A DNA stretch of 44,198 nt from a virus, in the IMG/VR virus record IMGVR_UViG_3300005527_000046, positions 64,001 to 108,198 of that record. The stretch is one strand, 5' to 3'. Positions 32,161 to 39,084 of this stretch are shown here, in pieces. Each line of letters starts with the position of its first letter. Position 1 is the first letter of the stretch. A program made the translations under genes and the position numbers. The notes below the pieces were generated by a model. It was not told where the DNA came from, did no database searches, and saw only the letters and a list, made by a program, of their open reading frames with translations.

Positions 32161-33480
32161 TTATAAACTGCCATACTGCAAGTCGCCAAGGACCCCAATT
32201 CTGGTGTTAATATCTTGAATTGTACCAATGGTCATGTGAGCTACTCTATGAGGATATAGCAAGTAAGGAAGACCAGCATTACCCATTTGAATGTACATAC
32301 CAGGAGCAGCAGGGATTGGGGTATCTCTTTGTTCTCTCATCCACAATCCAGGATTACCACCTGATTCTTCTGATACACAATATTGAGTTCTACCTGGAGC
32401 TTCATAGTTACCATCAGGACCAGCTTCAGATACAAATACAACTTTGTTTCTAGGCCATAGAAACTTTCTTACACCGTCTACTGGATCACGATACCAAGTC
32501 TCAACTGTTCTAATTGGAATGCCAGCTAAGGAAATAATACCATCTGGGCCAACACCAATAGAACCAACTTGATTAGCACTTAGTACATCAGATTCAATTT
32601 GATAGCCACCACCAGTATTACTAATTAATACATTTTTGTCACCTGTTTTAGCGCCTAGTCTAGGAATAAGTCCACCAGTTTGAAGCTTAATCTCATTGTT
32701 TTCTGAGATGATCATCTTCAAGTCAGGGTGAATATACATTGCTGTAATCTTAGTCTTATTGGTTGTTTTGAACCAATAGGCAAACTTTTGAATACAGGAG
32801 ACAATGGCTGCGTCTGGTTCAGTCCAAGGCATACCAGAAGTTGTGGCTTGAGGTGTATTATAATCAACTAAACCTCTGAATAGATTGGCTTCATTTCTAC
32901 CTCTATAACCTTGAGTGTTGTTATAACTCCAGAAGTTATGAGCAGGAATTTGTGCTGATACATTAATTGGTTGGCCGCTTCTAGGATCTGTATAGTTAAT
33001 ACCACCAAGAAGAGTTAAACCTCTGTACACATCCCAAGTCAAGTTGTGAGCTTCAACAAGCTTTTCAATTTGCTTGGCTACAAATGCTTCTGGATTTTCA
33101 AAGTCATTAACAGTGCCATCTTTAATTCTAATATTAGCGTCACCCCAAGAAATGTAGTGAGAGCCTCTTAGATACAAAGGTTGTACATAACGTCTTTGAG
33201 TTGTGTATTGACTGATTCCTAATAGTTGATCTGGCTCACCAAATTTAACAGGTGTAAATAAGGTACCAGTTGTTTCAAACTTTTGTTCTATAGCAACAAT
33301 TGGTTGCTTGATAGTTTGATCTGGAAACAATTCCTTTAAAGGAGTTGAACCGACTAGAGGAAGGAAAGACTTTGCTAGTTCTAGATAACTAGGTACGCCT
33401 GGCTTCTCACTAGTACTTACTGTTTCCCAAGGAGATGCATATGCATTCATATTAAAAGCTGGAACTTGTTGTAATGCCAT
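32161..33480 (-). CDS. Major capsid protein (gpE-like)
   Basis: The 439-residue protein is the best capsid candidate. It begins MALQQVPAFNMNAYASPWE and its middle (residues about 130-165, with AHNLTWDVYRGLTLLGG...INYTDPRSGQPINV) matches the phage capsid E family, in which an E/W-rich helix 'l.wdv..ALl.G...' precedes a strand with GxPI. AT-rich neighbours contrast with its more balanced codon use (GGT, CCA, ACC), which fits high expression. It follows the protease/scaffold gene by 39 nt, and a terminator ends it. It should form the HK97-fold shell hexamers and pentamers. Confidence 0.88.
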   Translation of the reverse strand: MALQQVPAFNMNAYASPWETVSTSEKPGVPSYLELAKSFLPLVGSTPLKELFPDQTIKQPIVAIEQKFETTGTLFTPVKFGEPDQLLGISQYTTQRRYVQPLYLRGSHYISWGDANIRIKDGTVNDFENPEAFVAKQIEKLVEAHNLTWDVYRGLTLLGGINYTDPRSGQPINVSAQIPAHNFWSYNNTQGYRGRNEANLFRGLVDYNTPQATTSGMPWTEPDAAIVSCIQKFAYWFKTTNKTKITAMYIHPDLKMIISENNEIKLQTGGLIPRLGAKTGDKNVLISNTGGGYQIESDVLSANQVGSIGVGPDGIISLAGIPIRTVETWYRDPVDGVRKFLWPRNKVVFVSEAGPDGNYEAPGRTQYCVSEESGGNPGLWMREQRDTPIPAAPGMYIQMGNAGLPYLLYPHRVAHMTIGTIQDINTRIGVLGDLQYGSL

Positions 33481-33519: not shown

Positions 33520-34764
33520 TTACTTAATTTTACTAGCCTTAGCTTTGTTTTCAGCAATCAAAGTATCTATGTAAGAAGGGGCTTTTTGACCAGATACTGC
33601 ACCTGTTTGATCATCTTCAGGCATTGCATTAGAACTTAGTTTAAGTAAGCTAATGATTGCATCTTCAAATGATACTTCAGTTTCATTGCCTTTAACAGAT
33701 AGCTTAACTACATGATTAGCAGAATCAAAATTATTGATGATAGACTTTGCTGTTTCTAAAGCAGCAGGACTTACACCAGCTTTGAATGCTGTGGTTAGCT
33801 TCTCATTTAGTCTTCTAGCTTTATCACTTGAAGAAAGAGCTACAATGTATTCATTGTGGTTGTCTGCTTTACTAGTAACTGCAGATACTTGACTTGAAAT
33901 CTCATCTACCTTAGAAGTAATGGCTGCTACAGCTTCACTAGTTTTGTTAGATACAGCTTCTAAACCTTGACTAAATTTACTTGTAATTTCAGATAGTTGG
34001 TCTGCTAATGCTTGTTGAGCTTCTTGACTTTTTAAAATTAGAGCTTCTAAATCTACTGTAGACTTAGAGGTTTCTACAGCAACAGGTGCTGTAGGAATTT
34101 GTACTTCATTTTGAGTTGACATTTGTATAGACTGTTCTTGTGTATTGTTTAATTCTGATGTGTTATCAACTGGTTCTTCTTTTGATTCAACAATCTCTTC
34201 ACTTGTTTCTTCAATAGTTTCACTTAATATATTAGTAGATAATTTAATACAAATACTATTACTATGTTGATTACTACCTTGAGATAAAGTAACTATCTTG
34301 TGATCATTGAAAGGCATGAACGGCGCATTTGTTAGTGCCGTTCTTAATAAGGTTGGACCAATTACTTCTCCAGTTCTTTTATCTCTGAAGTTGTCTTGAA
34401 TCTCAGGAGAACTATATTGATAATCTCCATTTTTGATTAAGTTATATGTTTCACTATTTATATCATATAATCCATAAACTACATCACCTTCTTTGATTAT
34501 TTCTTGAAGATCTCCTCTTTTTCTTTCTCCATCTACACTTTCTGGATCAGGAGAATCAGTTAAGTGTCCTAATGTTGCATAAGGTTTAAACCCTAAAACA
34601 TTAGAATTAAAGTTTTCAATTACCTTGTCAATATAACTATCAGTTACAAGTAAAGGACCATATCCAGGAACATGCCAATTACCTTTAAGTAAAATAGGGA
34701 TTTTTGCTTTGTTACTAGATATATCAGTAGGTATTGAATCTTTATTTAATACAGGATACTGCAT
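33520..34764 (-). CDS. Mu I-like prohead protease fused to scaffold
   Basis: The 414-residue product has an N-terminal domain (to about 160) resembling the Mu-like prophage protease: ILLKGNWHVPGYGPLLV, GHLTDSPDPESVDGE, GDYQYSSPEI and LTNAPFMPF. The rest is a low-complexity Glu/Ser stretch, a coiled coil at about 230-315 with many 'TSKV' and 'SE' heptads, and a C-terminal helix ending KASKIK, as in scaffolding domains. In Mu the scaffold is also made alone from an internal start; a Met at 215 (ATG at 34,122) begins the coiled-coil part and could do the same. It is the gene directly before the capsid protein. Active-site residues are not certain. Confidence 0.82.
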   Translation of the reverse strand: MQYPVLNKDSIPTDISSNKAKIPILLKGNWHVPGYGPLLVTDSYIDKVIENFNSNVLGFKPYATLGHLTDSPDPESVDGERKRGDLQEIIKEGDVVYGLYDINSETYNLIKNGDYQYSSPEIQDNFRDKRTGEVIGPTLLRTALTNAPFMPFNDHKIVTLSQGSNQHSNSICIKLSTNILSETIEETSEEIVESKEEPVDNTSELNNTQEQSIQMSTQNEVQIPTAPVAVETSKSTVDLEALILKSQEAQQALADQLSEITSKFSQGLEAVSNKTSEAVAAITSKVDEISSQVSAVTSKADNHNEYIVALSSSDKARRLNEKLTTAFKAGVSPAALETAKSIINNFDSANHVVKLSVKGNETEVSFEDAIISLLKLSSNAMPEDDQTGAVSGQKAPSYIDTLIAENKAKASKIK

Positions 34765-34813
34765 TACTTATTTTGTATAGTTGTATTTATTGATTTCATA
34801 TTATATTTATTTG

Positions 34814-34854
34814 ATATATAAATGTAGGCATTTATAATACCTACATTTATATAT
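34814..34854. promoter_or_regulatory. Perfect 15-bp inverted repeat with opposed promoter-like arms
   Basis: Arms ATATATAAATGTAGG (34,814-34,828) and CCTACATTTATATAT (34,840-34,854) frame an 11-nt loop that contains TATAAT. Each arm carries TATAAATGTAGG, similar to the shared promoter motif, pointing inward on opposite strands. It lies between the protease gene (minus) and the Dps-like gene (plus), so it may be a shared, mutually exclusive promoter/operator or an mRNA 5' hairpin. Confidence 0.5.
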
Positions 34855-34923: not shown

Positions 34924-35427
34924 ATGGAAATGGATAATCTCCTTGATATTAAATTTACTAGAAGTCATGCTTTATCTGAAGAAGTAAGAGCAGAAGTTAC
35001 ATCTAGATTATATGGCTTGATTGCTAGTTATATTGATGCTAGTGGTATTGTACTAGAAGCGCATTGGAATAGTGAGGGTAATAATTTTATTACTGTTCAT
35101 ACTTTATTTGGGGATATTGTTGGATTATTAAATGGATTTGTTGATCCATTAGGAGAAAGAATTAGATCTTTTGGAGGCACTGCTAAAGCTAACTTAAGGT
35201 ATGCTTTGGAAAATACTTTATTAGTTGAAACTCAAGCAATTTCTAATAATATTGATAGTAATATTCAAGCAGTAGTAACTATACTTAAAAGATTAAGTGA
35301 GTTGTTATATATGTTTATTAATTCTTTAGATAGTTTAGATAAGACTACATCTAACATATTACAAGATCAATGTAATAGTGTAGATAAATACATCTATCTT
35401 TTACAAAGTCATTTGTTTAATAGCTAA
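34924..35427 (+). CDS. dps: Dps/ferritin-like DNA protection protein
   Basis: The 167-residue protein aligns by eye along its whole length with Dps. AHWNSEGNNFITVH (46-59), D74-P-L-G-E78-R and GG near 84 match the family core, and DKTTSNILQDQ with LLQSHL matches the C-terminal 'DdTadil..l' and 'wfl.s.l'. Using E. coli numbering, ferroxidase residues H51, H63, D78 and E82 are present as H47, H59, D74 and E78, but D67 is replaced by G63, with an Asp one residue later. Dps forms 12-mers that oxidise Fe(II) with peroxide and may bind DNA. Here the gene is monocistronic with its own promoter motif and terminator, on the strand opposite the flanking capsid genes. A second ATG (34,930) is possible. 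Confidence 0.88.
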   Translation: MEMDNLLDIKFTRSHALSEEVRAEVTSRLYGLIASYIDASGIVLEAHWNSEGNNFITVHTLFGDIVGLLNGFVDPLGERIRSFGGTAKANLRYALENTLLVETQAISNNIDSNIQAVVTILKRLSELLYMFINSLDSLDKTTSNILQDQCNSVDKYIYLLQSHLFNS

Positions 35428-35445
35428 TAACAAATATAAAATAAT

Positions 35446-35493
35446 ATAAAATAAAAGGAAGAGAAATAATGTTTTCTCTTCCTTTTATTTTAT
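35446..35493 (+). terminator. Terminator after dps-like gene
   Basis: Perfect 21-bp arms at 35,446-35,466 and 35,473-35,493 with a 6-nt loop; GGAAGAGA forms the G/C-containing core and TTTTATTTTA follows. It is symmetric enough to work both ways and separates the Dps-like gene from the following cassette. Confidence 0.88.
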
Positions 35494-35527: not shown

Positions 35528-36124
35528 ATGCTTCTCTTAATAACAGAGCAACAAAAAGAGTTTTTATTTAAAAATACATTAGATCAAGTTGTAGATAAAG
35601 ATAGTGCAACTCTTATCTTTCTTAAGGAATTATTTGATGTAAAAGCAGAAAATAATCCACTATCTGAGCCTATCTTTTTTGTTTGTTTGTTTGAATTTAT
35701 TACTTATTTTTTGTATGTATATAGTCCTTCTTCTCTTGTACAAGATCCATGTAAGCAAGAGAAAAGAATAAAGATAATTAATGCTTGTGTAGATACATCT
35801 GCGATCTATCTACCTCTTACTGCAAAAGAAACTCTTGACAACCTTCTTCAAAATGAAGATCTTCCTGTACTAGATCTTAAATGGCTTGAAGGCTCAAAGA
35901 TTGGTCTTAGTTATAAAATCAATCCTCTTATTAGACAACTAAGAATAAATATAACTATAAAAGAAAACACTTTTTATAATGTGTTAAATATTACCAGCAA
36001 GCCAAAAATATTTAGTTTTAGTTTTGAAACTGTAGTAAAAGATCCTCTAGAGTTTTTGTATAAGATTATATCTATGTATAATGAGTTAGTAGACCTTATG
36101 CCTTATAATGAAGAAATTTCATAG
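35528..36124 (+). CDS. Unrecognised cassette protein, paralogue 1
   Basis: The 198-residue product has a hydrophobic helical segment at about 45-68 (PIFFVCLFEFITYFLYVY) followed by SPSSLVQDP, and an end segment DPLEFLYKIISMYNELVDLM. The next gene repeats this plan, so the two are ancient tandem paralogues. The hydrophobic helix might be a membrane segment or a buried core helix. The gene starts 34 nt after the Dps-region terminator; TTATACTAGGTTAAAA may supply a -10 element. No family recognised. The cassette also codes a SWIM protein, which suggests an accessory rather than a virion role. Confidence 0.5.
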   Translation: MLLLITEQQKEFLFKNTLDQVVDKDSATLIFLKELFDVKAENNPLSEPIFFVCLFEFITYFLYVYSPSSLVQDPCKQEKRIKIINACVDTSAIYLPLTAKETLDNLLQNEDLPVLDLKWLEGSKIGLSYKINPLIRQLRINITIKENTFYNVLNITSKPKIFSFSFETVVKDPLEFLYKIISMYNELVDLMPYNEEIS

Positions 36125-36135
36125 TGGAATTCATA

Positions 36136-36678
36136 ATGGAAAAAACAATACATGATTTAGCCGCTACTAATGCAGAAAAGCAATATTTATTAAGTGTTTC
36201 TGCTCAGGAGTTTATTAATGAATTATCTACTAAAGATATATTAATCTCTACTTTAAAAGACTTTGTTGTTATTAATAACATAAGCTTATTGTGTTTATAT
36301 AATATATTATTTGTAGTTGTAGCTTTGTATTTCCCTAACTCTTTAATAGATAATCATAATAGTAAACTTGAGACTTTAGCTTATTTAAGAAGAGGATTTG
36401 ATGCTGAGGACTTTTATCAAGTTAAAATTCAAATGACTGTTTTGACTGGATATCAGTGGGAAGAAAATCCCATTAAAACTTATAAATACTCAATACAATT
36501 TTCAAAGTGGGGCTATAATAGAGTCTTTATTTTTATGGATGAAGTTGTTAGCTTTAATATGTGTGTAGAACATATTAATACTATTGACTTCAATAAAGAG
36601 GAGAACTTTAATGAATGGCTTATAAATATGTTACTTTTGTATAATGACCTTGTTGATACTTTATTTAAACATGTATGA
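36136..36678 (+). CDS. Unrecognised cassette protein, paralogue 2
   Basis: The 180-residue product (ATG at 36,136) repeats the plan of the gene before it: KQYLLSVSAQEFINELS, then a hydrophobic helix (YNILFVVVALYFPNSLID) and a C-terminal EWLINMLLLYNDLVDTLF matching DPLEFLYKIISMYNELVDLM. A GTG at 36,124 overlapping the upstream TAG would add four residues; I prefer the ATG because GTG starts are otherwise rare here. Its TGA overlaps the SWIM gene start (ATGA). Function unknown; the pair may form a heteromer. Confidence 0.5.
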   Translation: MEKTIHDLAATNAEKQYLLSVSAQEFINELSTKDILISTLKDFVVINNISLLCLYNILFVVVALYFPNSLIDNHNSKLETLAYLRRGFDAEDFYQVKIQMTVLTGYQWEENPIKTYKYSIQFSKWGYNRVFIFMDEVVSFNMCVEHINTIDFNKEENFNEWLINMLLLYNDLVDTLFKHV

Positions 36679-37076
36679 AAAATTCTTTAATGTTTGTTAC
36701 TTATAATGACTACATTATTAAGTTAATTAATAATAGATTTATTAAAGATATCTCTGTTGAAACTGAAGGAGATGAAAAAGGATTTATGTACTACCATGTA
36801 AATGGTAAAAGACATAAAATTCCTCCAGTTGAAAATGCTAGTAAGATTATTGAAAATACTATAGCAGCTTTATTAATTATGGAAGGTTATGTTGTTGTTA
36901 ATAATGTAGAAGGTGTATCTATTGTTAGTAATGGAGAAGGAGATACATACTTTGTTAATGGTAATCAATGTAGCTGTCCAGATAGATTTGGTCCTTGTAA
37001 GCATGTATTCTTTTCTAATTGGTTGCTTGAATTTAGAAAGGAACAAGTAAAGTTACTTCATCAAACTACTAATTAA
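36675..37076 (+). CDS. SWIM zinc-finger protein
   Basis: The 133-residue product ends with a SWIM-type finger: GDTYFVNGNQCSCPDRFGPC then KH, giving C99-x-C101-x6-C108-x-H110, the CxCxnCxH signature, with aromatic residues and a hydrophobic helix following. SWIM domains bind DNA or protein partners and are typical of transposases, Rad51-interacting proteins and SWI-linked ATPases; here it stands alone on an N-terminal domain of about 85 residues (MYYHVNGKRHKIPPVENASK). It is coupled by ATGA to paralogue 2. Possible roles are a transcription regulator or a nucleic-acid binding partner of the two paralogues. Confidence 0.7.
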   Translation: MKNSLMFVTYNDYIIKLINNRFIKDISVETEGDEKGFMYYHVNGKRHKIPPVENASKIIENTIAALLIMEGYVVVNNVEGVSIVSNGEGDTYFVNGNQCSCPDRFGPCKHVFFSNWLLEFRKEQVKLLHQTTN

Positions 37077-37656: not shown

Positions 37657-39084
37657 TTATTCTTCCTCGTCTGGTATTGCTAATAGGTTTCTAAAATGTC
37701 TTCTATCTTTTTCATTGATAATAGGATTTATAATACCAGCCTCTGTTAATGTTTTAGCACTGTCTGCTATTACTTTGTAATCTACATATCTCATAGGCTT
37801 GATTGTAAAATAACCTCCATCTTGTGCACTAGGCACTAACATTGTACTAAAGTTGTACTGAATAAGAGGTTTTACTAATTGTTCAATTATTGCTTGAGAT
37901 ACCTTAATAGCTATTTGAGTTATAGCCATATCAAATATTTCTAACTGCCTTTCTGCAGATCCACCAGAGCCTAAACCTCTTCCTTCATCTCTAATAATTA
38001 AGTTAGGAATACCTAAAGCATTTAACATGTTTTGGTCACATAAATTAATAGCATTTACAAAAGAATCACCAAAGTTATTTCCAGTTGTAAGTGCCGCTAC
38101 TTTAGGTTCTGGTGCGTCTTTATTTCCTTGTCTTTCAAGTATAAGAACAGAACCACTACTTAATCCTTGAACTTCTTCTTGTAGAGCTTCTCTAAACATT
38201 TTCTTTCTAATTGTTCCATCTTGTTCTTCAACATCTTCTGTTGTTTGAGTTGCTGGAACAATAAAATACATTAGAGGTGTTCCATATCTATCAAGAGCAA
38301 TGGAATACATATCTCTAAAGGCTTCTTTGTATAATGAAAAGTCTACTGCTGCATAAATAGCTGGTGTACCATGTGGATTGTTACCTTCACTTTTATATGT
38401 AACCATAATTAGCTTGTCTTGAGCTAATCTTATGTGTGATCCAGTACAATCTCTACTTACTTTATATGCTTTACTATCTTCTGTTAATATAGGTCTAGGA
38501 ACCCAAACACCTGTATTAAACTGACTATTTAGTACCTTTTCACCATGAGTTAAAGAGCCAAAATTATTGAGTCTAAGTATTATCTGAGACGTATGATAAT
38601 TAATAAGATCTTGTATCCATAGCTGTCTTACCTCTCCTTGATATCTCTTTTCCCATACAATTTCAGATACTGATTTACCAGACCATAACATTGAATATGT
38701 AATGTTCTCAATCCAAGTTCTGACTCTATTGTTTAGGTTTGCCCTAACAAATGCTTTTATGTCTGGGTTTGGATGATTGTAAGAACCTATCTTTGCCAAC
38801 ACAGAAAGAACCATCTTATCTAAACCATCAGATATAATAGGCTCTCTTTTTCTTACATAATCCCATACTGCTAGTTGATAAGGATGTGGTCCTGTGTTGA
38901 CATATAAAGAATCACCATTACTAACAAAAGATGTGGCTCTTCCTAATTGTTTATAAGTATTAGGTCTTAGTTTGTTATCTCCTAATACTAGTAATGGAGG
39001 ATTAGTATTAAACTTGTTTATATTAATCTCTCCATTACTAACTTGTTGTTCCTTTTTAGGTGTCTCTGTTTTTGCTTTTATCAT
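37657..39084 (-). CDS. Portal protein (Mu gp29 / DUF935-like)
   Basis: The 475-residue product resembles the Mu gp29-type portal family. It has a helical core (DGLDKMVLSVLAKIG), the SMLWSGKSVSEIVWE strand, DRYGTPLMYFIVPA, and an end helix region with GSAERQLEIFDMAITQIA and IIEQLVKPLI. It should form the dodecameric ring at the capsid vertex that accepts the packaging motor and neck. The neighbours fit: a Mu I-like protease and gpE-like capsid gene lie downstream. The terminase that would normally stand upstream is not in the window. The start ATG follows the preceding stop by one base. Confidence 0.88.
   Translation of the reverse strand: MIKAKTETPKKEQQVSNGEININKFNTNPPLLVLGDNKLRPNTYKQLGRATSFVSNGDSLYVNTGPHPYQLAVWDYVRKREPIISDGLDKMVLSVLAKIGSYNHPNPDIKAFVRANLNNRVRTWIENITYSMLWSGKSVSEIVWEKRYQGEVRQLWIQDLINYHTSQIILRLNNFGSLTHGEKVLNSQFNTGVWVPRPILTEDSKAYKVSRDCTGSHIRLAQDKLIMVTYKSEGNNPHGTPAIYAAVDFSLYKEAFRDMYSIALDRYGTPLMYFIVPATQTTEDVEEQDGTIRKKMFREALQEEVQGLSSGSVLILERQGNKDAPEPKVAALTTGNNFGDSFVNAINLCDQNMLNALGIPNLIIRDEGRGLGSGGSAERQLEIFDMAITQIAIKVSQAIIEQLVKPLIQYNFSTMLVPSAQDGGYFTIKPMRYVDYKVIADSAKTLTEAGIINPIINEKDRRHFRNLLAIPDEEE

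Follow-up and report, generated by a model that had tools for sequence, protein, structure and literature searches.

Why should a phage keep a gene for a Dps-type miniferritin in antisense orientation within its capsid block, and what would such a protein do when one residue of its ferroxidase centre is glycine? Phage Dps proteins as such are already known; published examples come from Lactobacillus phages (PMC6669764) and from phages of the gut (PMC8008677), and those of other phages have been read as oxidative-stress proteins (PMC8008677). The gene considered here lies in a stretch of 44,198 bases, hereafter the window, taken from a virus record of 108,198 bases (positions 64001-108198). The features discussed are collected in Table 1.

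Table 1. Features of the dps locus, with positions in the window and the evidence for each
Feature	Position	Strand	Evidence
Major capsid protein	32161..33480	-	phrog_30785 2.1e-121; 44% to Ma-LMM01
Protease/scaffold-position protein, divergent neighbour	33520..34764	-	phrog_32941 1.3e-39 (no function named there)
TGTAGGCATTTAT, conserved block between dps and protease gene	34823..34835	.	invariant in four lineages
dps, 167-aa Dps-family miniferritin	34924..35427	+	Pfam, phrog, AlphaFold, Foldseek
L44 codon (E. coli Lys48 equivalent, Asp67 salt-bridge partner)	35053..35055	+	clade and bacterial alignment
H47 codon (E. coli His51 equivalent)	35062..35064	+	invariant, 107 homologues
G63-D64 codons (Asp67-Gly68 equivalents)	35110..35115	+	clade alignment
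Intrinsic-terminator-like hairpin, 20-bp, after dps	35447..35492	+	hairpin search
198-aa protein, function unknown, second island gene	35528..36124	+	order kept in relatives; no convincing family match
184-aa protein, function unknown, third island gene	36124..36678	+	order in relatives
SWIM-type zinc-finger protein, 133 aa, fourth island gene	36675..37076	+	SWIM 7.9e-4; phrog_32834 6.1e-13
Portal protein	37657..39084	-	Portal_Mu 3.9e-24

Identity and fold of the dps product

The first-pass annotation had proposed a Dps-like protein, and the profile, sequence and structure comparisons all agree with it. The product scores above the cut-off of the Pfam Ferritin family PF00210 (E 4.7e-9; 36.7 bits against 24.5), matches phrog_3636, labelled 'DNA binding protein' (E 3.7e-23), and has Dps-family chains as its top sequence matches among solved structures, the best being 1o9r (E 2.7e-12). 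Against the NCBIfam Dps equivalog NF006975 it scores 72.2 bits (5e-20), below the 114-bit cut-off, and by sequence it is homologous to the members of that family yet outside the curated equivalog. An AlphaFold model computed with the four clade sequences alone reached a pLDDT of 48 and was replaced by a monomer model built from 51 aligned sequences of the window and the loci, for which pLDDT is 94.7 and pTM 0.90. In this model (mf659b895c8f5) helices span residues 19-49, 55-82, 91-97, 110-135 and 140-165, forming a Dps-like four-helix bundle with the short helix 91-97 between helices B and C. A different four-helix protein had been named as the outcome that would contradict the annotation; the predicted model is a Dps, and all 50 Foldseek matches listed belong to the Dps family, mostly at TM 0.78-0.87, with Agrobacterium tumefaciens (1o9r) and Escherichia coli Dps leading at TM 0.84-0.87 and Mycobacterium smegmatis Dps also near. 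Judged by sequence profile and predicted fold together, the open reading frame is a genuine Dps, and chance resemblance is ruled out.

The A. tumefaciens protein is the best match both in sequence and in structure (TM 0.86-0.87). It resembles the phage protein in its H, H, D, E ligands and in having no basic N-terminal tail, and differs from it in sequence (26% identity) and in keeping Lys and Asp at the Lys48 and Asp67 places. Similar dps genes occur in Salmonella, Cronobacter, Aeromonas, Streptomyces and Synechococcus phages. The members of phrog_3636, among them those of Salmonella phage 7-11, Cronobacter phage GAP52, the Aeromonas LAh phages and Lactobacillus phage Lb338-1, are likewise phage-borne; at 21-29% identity they lie, unlike the window gene, mostly with nucleotide-metabolism or replication genes. 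The Dps of the 'Gratiaviridae' and 'Flandersviridae' gut phages, likened to the present one by description and not by sequence and carried by phages of anaerobic Bacteroidetes, has been proposed to raise tolerance of oxidative damage (PMC8008677).

An antisense island in the capsid block

It had been noted that dps stands alone on the opposite strand between the protease and portal genes. The position was borne out and the isolation was not, since dps heads an island of four plus-strand genes, followed by those for the 198-aa, the 184-aa and the SWIM proteins; a 174-aa gene on the minus strand adjoins the portal gene. The capsid proteins resemble those of Microcystis phages, and in one of them, Ma-LMM01, the homologue of the protease-position gene sits directly before the major capsid gene. 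The order of the four island genes is identical in the related contigs L002, L008 and L011, while no homologue of the 184-aa protein was detected in L007. The unknown genes beside dps form a variable set; in L011 the 184-aa family is present as a run of several diverged copies (L011:6062-7859).

Every related contig that spans the site has dps there in antisense (L002, L006/L007, L008, L009, L011 and L012). Outside the near-twin L002, identity to the window Dps is 51-65%, that is, 35-49% divergence, with capsid proteins at 87-90%, and the comparison of L008 with L011 gives a dN/dS of about 0.1-0.26. The same place is also occupied by an antisense gene in Ma-LMM01, My-WqHQDG, L016 and L017: in the first two it is a homologue of the window SWIM zinc-finger gene (gp084 in Ma-LMM01), and in the other two a similar-looking open reading frame with a cysteine/histidine-rich C-terminus. 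SWIM homologues are recorded for L003 and L004, and the SWIM gene is the old resident of the antisense site. No Ferritin-family gene was found anywhere in the sequence available for Ma-LMM01, My-WqHQDG, L016 and L017. As dps occurs in all spanning related contigs and is absent from these four records, Ma-LMM01 and My-WqHQDG being more distant relatives, it was either gained in the clade or kept by it; and since it holds the same site in four lineages diverged by 35-49%, it is a resident phage gene and not a recent host capture. A recent host gene lost from related phages, the second outcome that would have told against the annotation, is rejected on the same grounds: dps is retained, and the best bacterial match among 80 loci has 31% identity, in a scan whose pattern favoured E. 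coli-type Dps and did not sample cyanobacteria or Bacteroidota as groups, where a closer relative is possible.

Other genes of the record are set down here as observations. On the strand opposite to the capsid gene lies a 144-aa open reading frame (window:30694-31128, +) in which a stretch of 57 aa resembles residues 207-263 of the major capsid protein of this phage (39%, E 8e-11); it has a homologue in L014 (44%) and none in the phage records searched, and it may be a capsid fragment encoded on its own, with a part in regulation or interference. A GIY-YIG homing endonuclease gene (window:31566-32048, -; 9e-7) lies beside the major capsid gene, its orientation varying among relatives, and a flavin-dependent oxidoreductase gene (window:5189-6241, -; Lys/Orn monooxygenase-like, 2.3e-10) lies within the tail/baseplate block. 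Outside the window, the record encodes a three-domain Pnkp RNA-repair enzyme with kinase, phosphatase and ligase (G000:26286-28628; L152) and, 571 bases past it, a Hen1 methyltransferase (G000:29200-30408; L152), a phage-borne Pnkp/Hen1 RNA-repair pair; Hen1-like genes were found in five other phage records. A PARP-type ADP-ribosyltransferase is encoded at G000:40980-42164 (outside the window; L153), its best kin being in Cellulophaga phages (36%).

Transcription signals around dps

The gene had been credited with a terminator and a promoter motif of its own. The terminator stands: the 20-bp hairpin after dps has counterparts in L007, L008 and L011, where hairpins of unrelated sequence are followed by a T-rich stretch, and because such hairpins lie 3' of dps in every lineage, a separate transcript end is conserved. 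The promoter does not: matches to TTGATA-16-TATAAT like that at 34811-34838 number 22, against 28.8 expected by chance, the hexamers of this one are not kept in relatives, and it was rejected. T4-type late promoters (TATAAATA) were likewise set aside, as 25 matches against 16.3 expected is too weak a signal to use. The block TGTAGGCATTTAT upstream of dps is the sole exact copy in the 108-kb record, and may just as well act on the divergent capsid operon; two copies with one mismatch each make up a long hairpin at G000:44868-44911. The dps start codon is preceded, at a distance of 2 bases, by a perfect 17-bp inverted repeat with a 27-base spacer (window:34861-34921) that is not kept in relatives.

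The ferroxidase centre and position 67

Ligand roles were taken from published work on Dps (PMC9140674, PMC6150300, PMC6675082). Alignment confirmed the earlier statement that four ligands are kept and that the Asp67 equivalent is Gly with an adjacent Asp: H47, H59, D74 and E78 correspond to His51, His63, Asp78 and Glu82 and are invariant in 107 aligned homologues, and in place of the canonical Asp or Glu at position 67 stands G63 (codon GGG, 35110-35112), followed by D64. The feature of His-type cyanobacterial Dps, a His at position 78, is absent, the window protein having D74.

The altered centre is therefore real, as Gly63 attests, and less special than had been proposed, since Gly recurs in viral Dps and there is a precedent in Nostoc punctiforme Dps4. 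That protein shares with the phage protein a non-acidic position 67 (Asn) followed by Asp68, and differs from it in its His-type centre, with His at position 78 where the phage protein keeps Asp; in its crystal neither Asn67 nor Asp68 coordinates iron, and Fe(II) is still oxidised with O2 (PMC6675082). Compensation by the neighbouring Asp64 was considered and is unsupported, as an acidic residue at +1 is found in 18 of 32 Gly rows and 17 of 41 Asp/Glu rows of viral Dps, with too few independent pairs, and Asp68 of NpDps4 is likewise non-coordinating.

Within the phage clade, Gly is confined to the window and its near-twin L002, with Asp in L006/L007 and Glu in L008, L009, L011 and L012, which makes Gly63 a late change in one branch. 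That Gly is unique to the window phage can be rejected. Outside the clade it is present in S-SRM01, the single Gly bearer in phrog_3636 (Asp/Glu in 9/10), and in 8 of 11 other viral loci. Pattern scans of viral contigs returned at least 120 rows for the Gly form and at least 120 for the Asp/Glu form, both lower bounds from which no Gly : Asp/Glu ratio is derivable, and for each form 80 of 80 loci examined are Dps by profile search. Among bacterial Dps, none of 80 homologous loci has Gly at this place; in a scan of 299 Pseudomonadota genomes, 12 matches to the Gly pattern turned up, none reading as Dps on inspection, and the Asp/Glu pattern was matched in 106 genomes. At least 21 residue-class changes between Gly and Asp/Glu were counted (fewest steps, three states) on a quick 89-sequence tree in which many branches are weakly supported. 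Gly at position 67 is frequent among viral Dps, where it recurs, and was not found in the bacteria sampled.

In E. coli Dps a low-affinity iron site is formed by Lys48, Asp67 and Asp78, with a salt bridge between Lys48 and Asp67 (PMC9140674, PMC6150300). The Lys48 place holds Leu or Trp throughout the clade and Lys in 12 of 12 deduplicated bacterial Dps. Over 88 deduplicated sequences, Lys48 is present in 27 of 56 Asp/Glu rows and in 0 of 32 Gly rows (Fisher p 3.5e-7; p 7e-4 in viral rows alone); both p-values ignore shared ancestry and just four independent pairs fall on well-supported branches, so the association is a lead only. It may be speculated that viral Dps have repeatedly dismantled the Lys48-Asp67 second site, giving a phage-typical miniferritin with a changed iron and oxidant mechanism, and that in the window clade the Lys was lost first and Gly63 came after; this reading of the alignments is tentative, and we hold it to be possible though doubtful. 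What may be new in these observations is that viral Dps have lost the second iron site repeatedly, and that this loss is linked to Lys48.

Possible roles of the phage Dps

Taken together, these data suggest that dps encodes a Dps-type miniferritin, a long-term resident of the clade with its own transcription unit, which probably acts in the removal of iron and oxidants during infection. From the fold, the ligands and the family we infer that iron and peroxide removal is most likely its role, this being the best supported. The product, modelled here as a monomer, is predicted to assemble into a dodecamer during infection; ferrous iron would be taken up at an inter-subunit centre to which one chain contributes H47 and H59 and its neighbour D74 and E78, and would be oxidised with peroxide or oxygen. 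Phage DNA would then be exposed to less Fenton chemistry while it replicates and matures, and the host would stay productive. The low-affinity second iron site is probably weakened, since Leu stands in for Lys48 and Gly for Asp67, which may leave one tight iron per centre and slower mineralisation; Gly63 may also reduce activity beyond what is assumed here.

Other roles have to be weighed against this one. A Dps that supplies or chaperones iron, storing that of the host for phage enzymes or iron-bearing virion parts and not for protection, would fit other phages, in which dps is a neighbour of genes for ribonucleotide reductase and thymidylate synthase; the window gene is set in the capsid block, none of the genes examined was recognised as one for a ribonucleotide reductase, and this role is unlikely here. 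Compaction of host DNA, which had also been suggested, belongs to a view in which a DNA-binding Dps coats host or phage DNA as a physical shield, as the family name and the phrog_3636 label would imply. E. coli Dps has a Lys-rich N-terminal tail. In the window protein the 19 residues before helix A carry a net charge of -2, as do the N-terminal 19-21 residues of all four clade members, and the nearest solved structure, A. tumefaciens Dps, protects DNA without binding it; on account of this non-basic N-terminus and this non-binding relative, DNA compaction is decidedly unlikely.

The position between the protease and portal genes would suit a virion component, packaged in or on the head and protecting the encapsidated DNA. 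Against such a part in the particle speak the opposite strand and own terminator of dps, its island partners, which look non-structural, and the related phages that have the same neighbouring capsid genes and no dps, all of which render it very unlikely. A degenerating Dps whose centre decays because it no longer functions could account for the restriction of Gly within the clade to the window phage and its near-twin; it is, however, highly improbable in view of the invariance of the other four ligands, the intact frame, the purifying selection in sister lineages and the frequency of Gly among intact viral Dps.

Removal of iron and oxidants by a resident miniferritin is the reading preferred here. 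The locus shows that a capsid module can keep an oxidative-stress/iron gene as a stable member across long phage divergence. Position 67 of the Dps ferroxidase centre appears free to vary in viruses and fixed in the bacteria sampled, and as sister phages offer natural Gly, Asp and Glu versions at one site, the role of Asp67 in iron binding and in the choice of oxidant is testable without a designed mutant.
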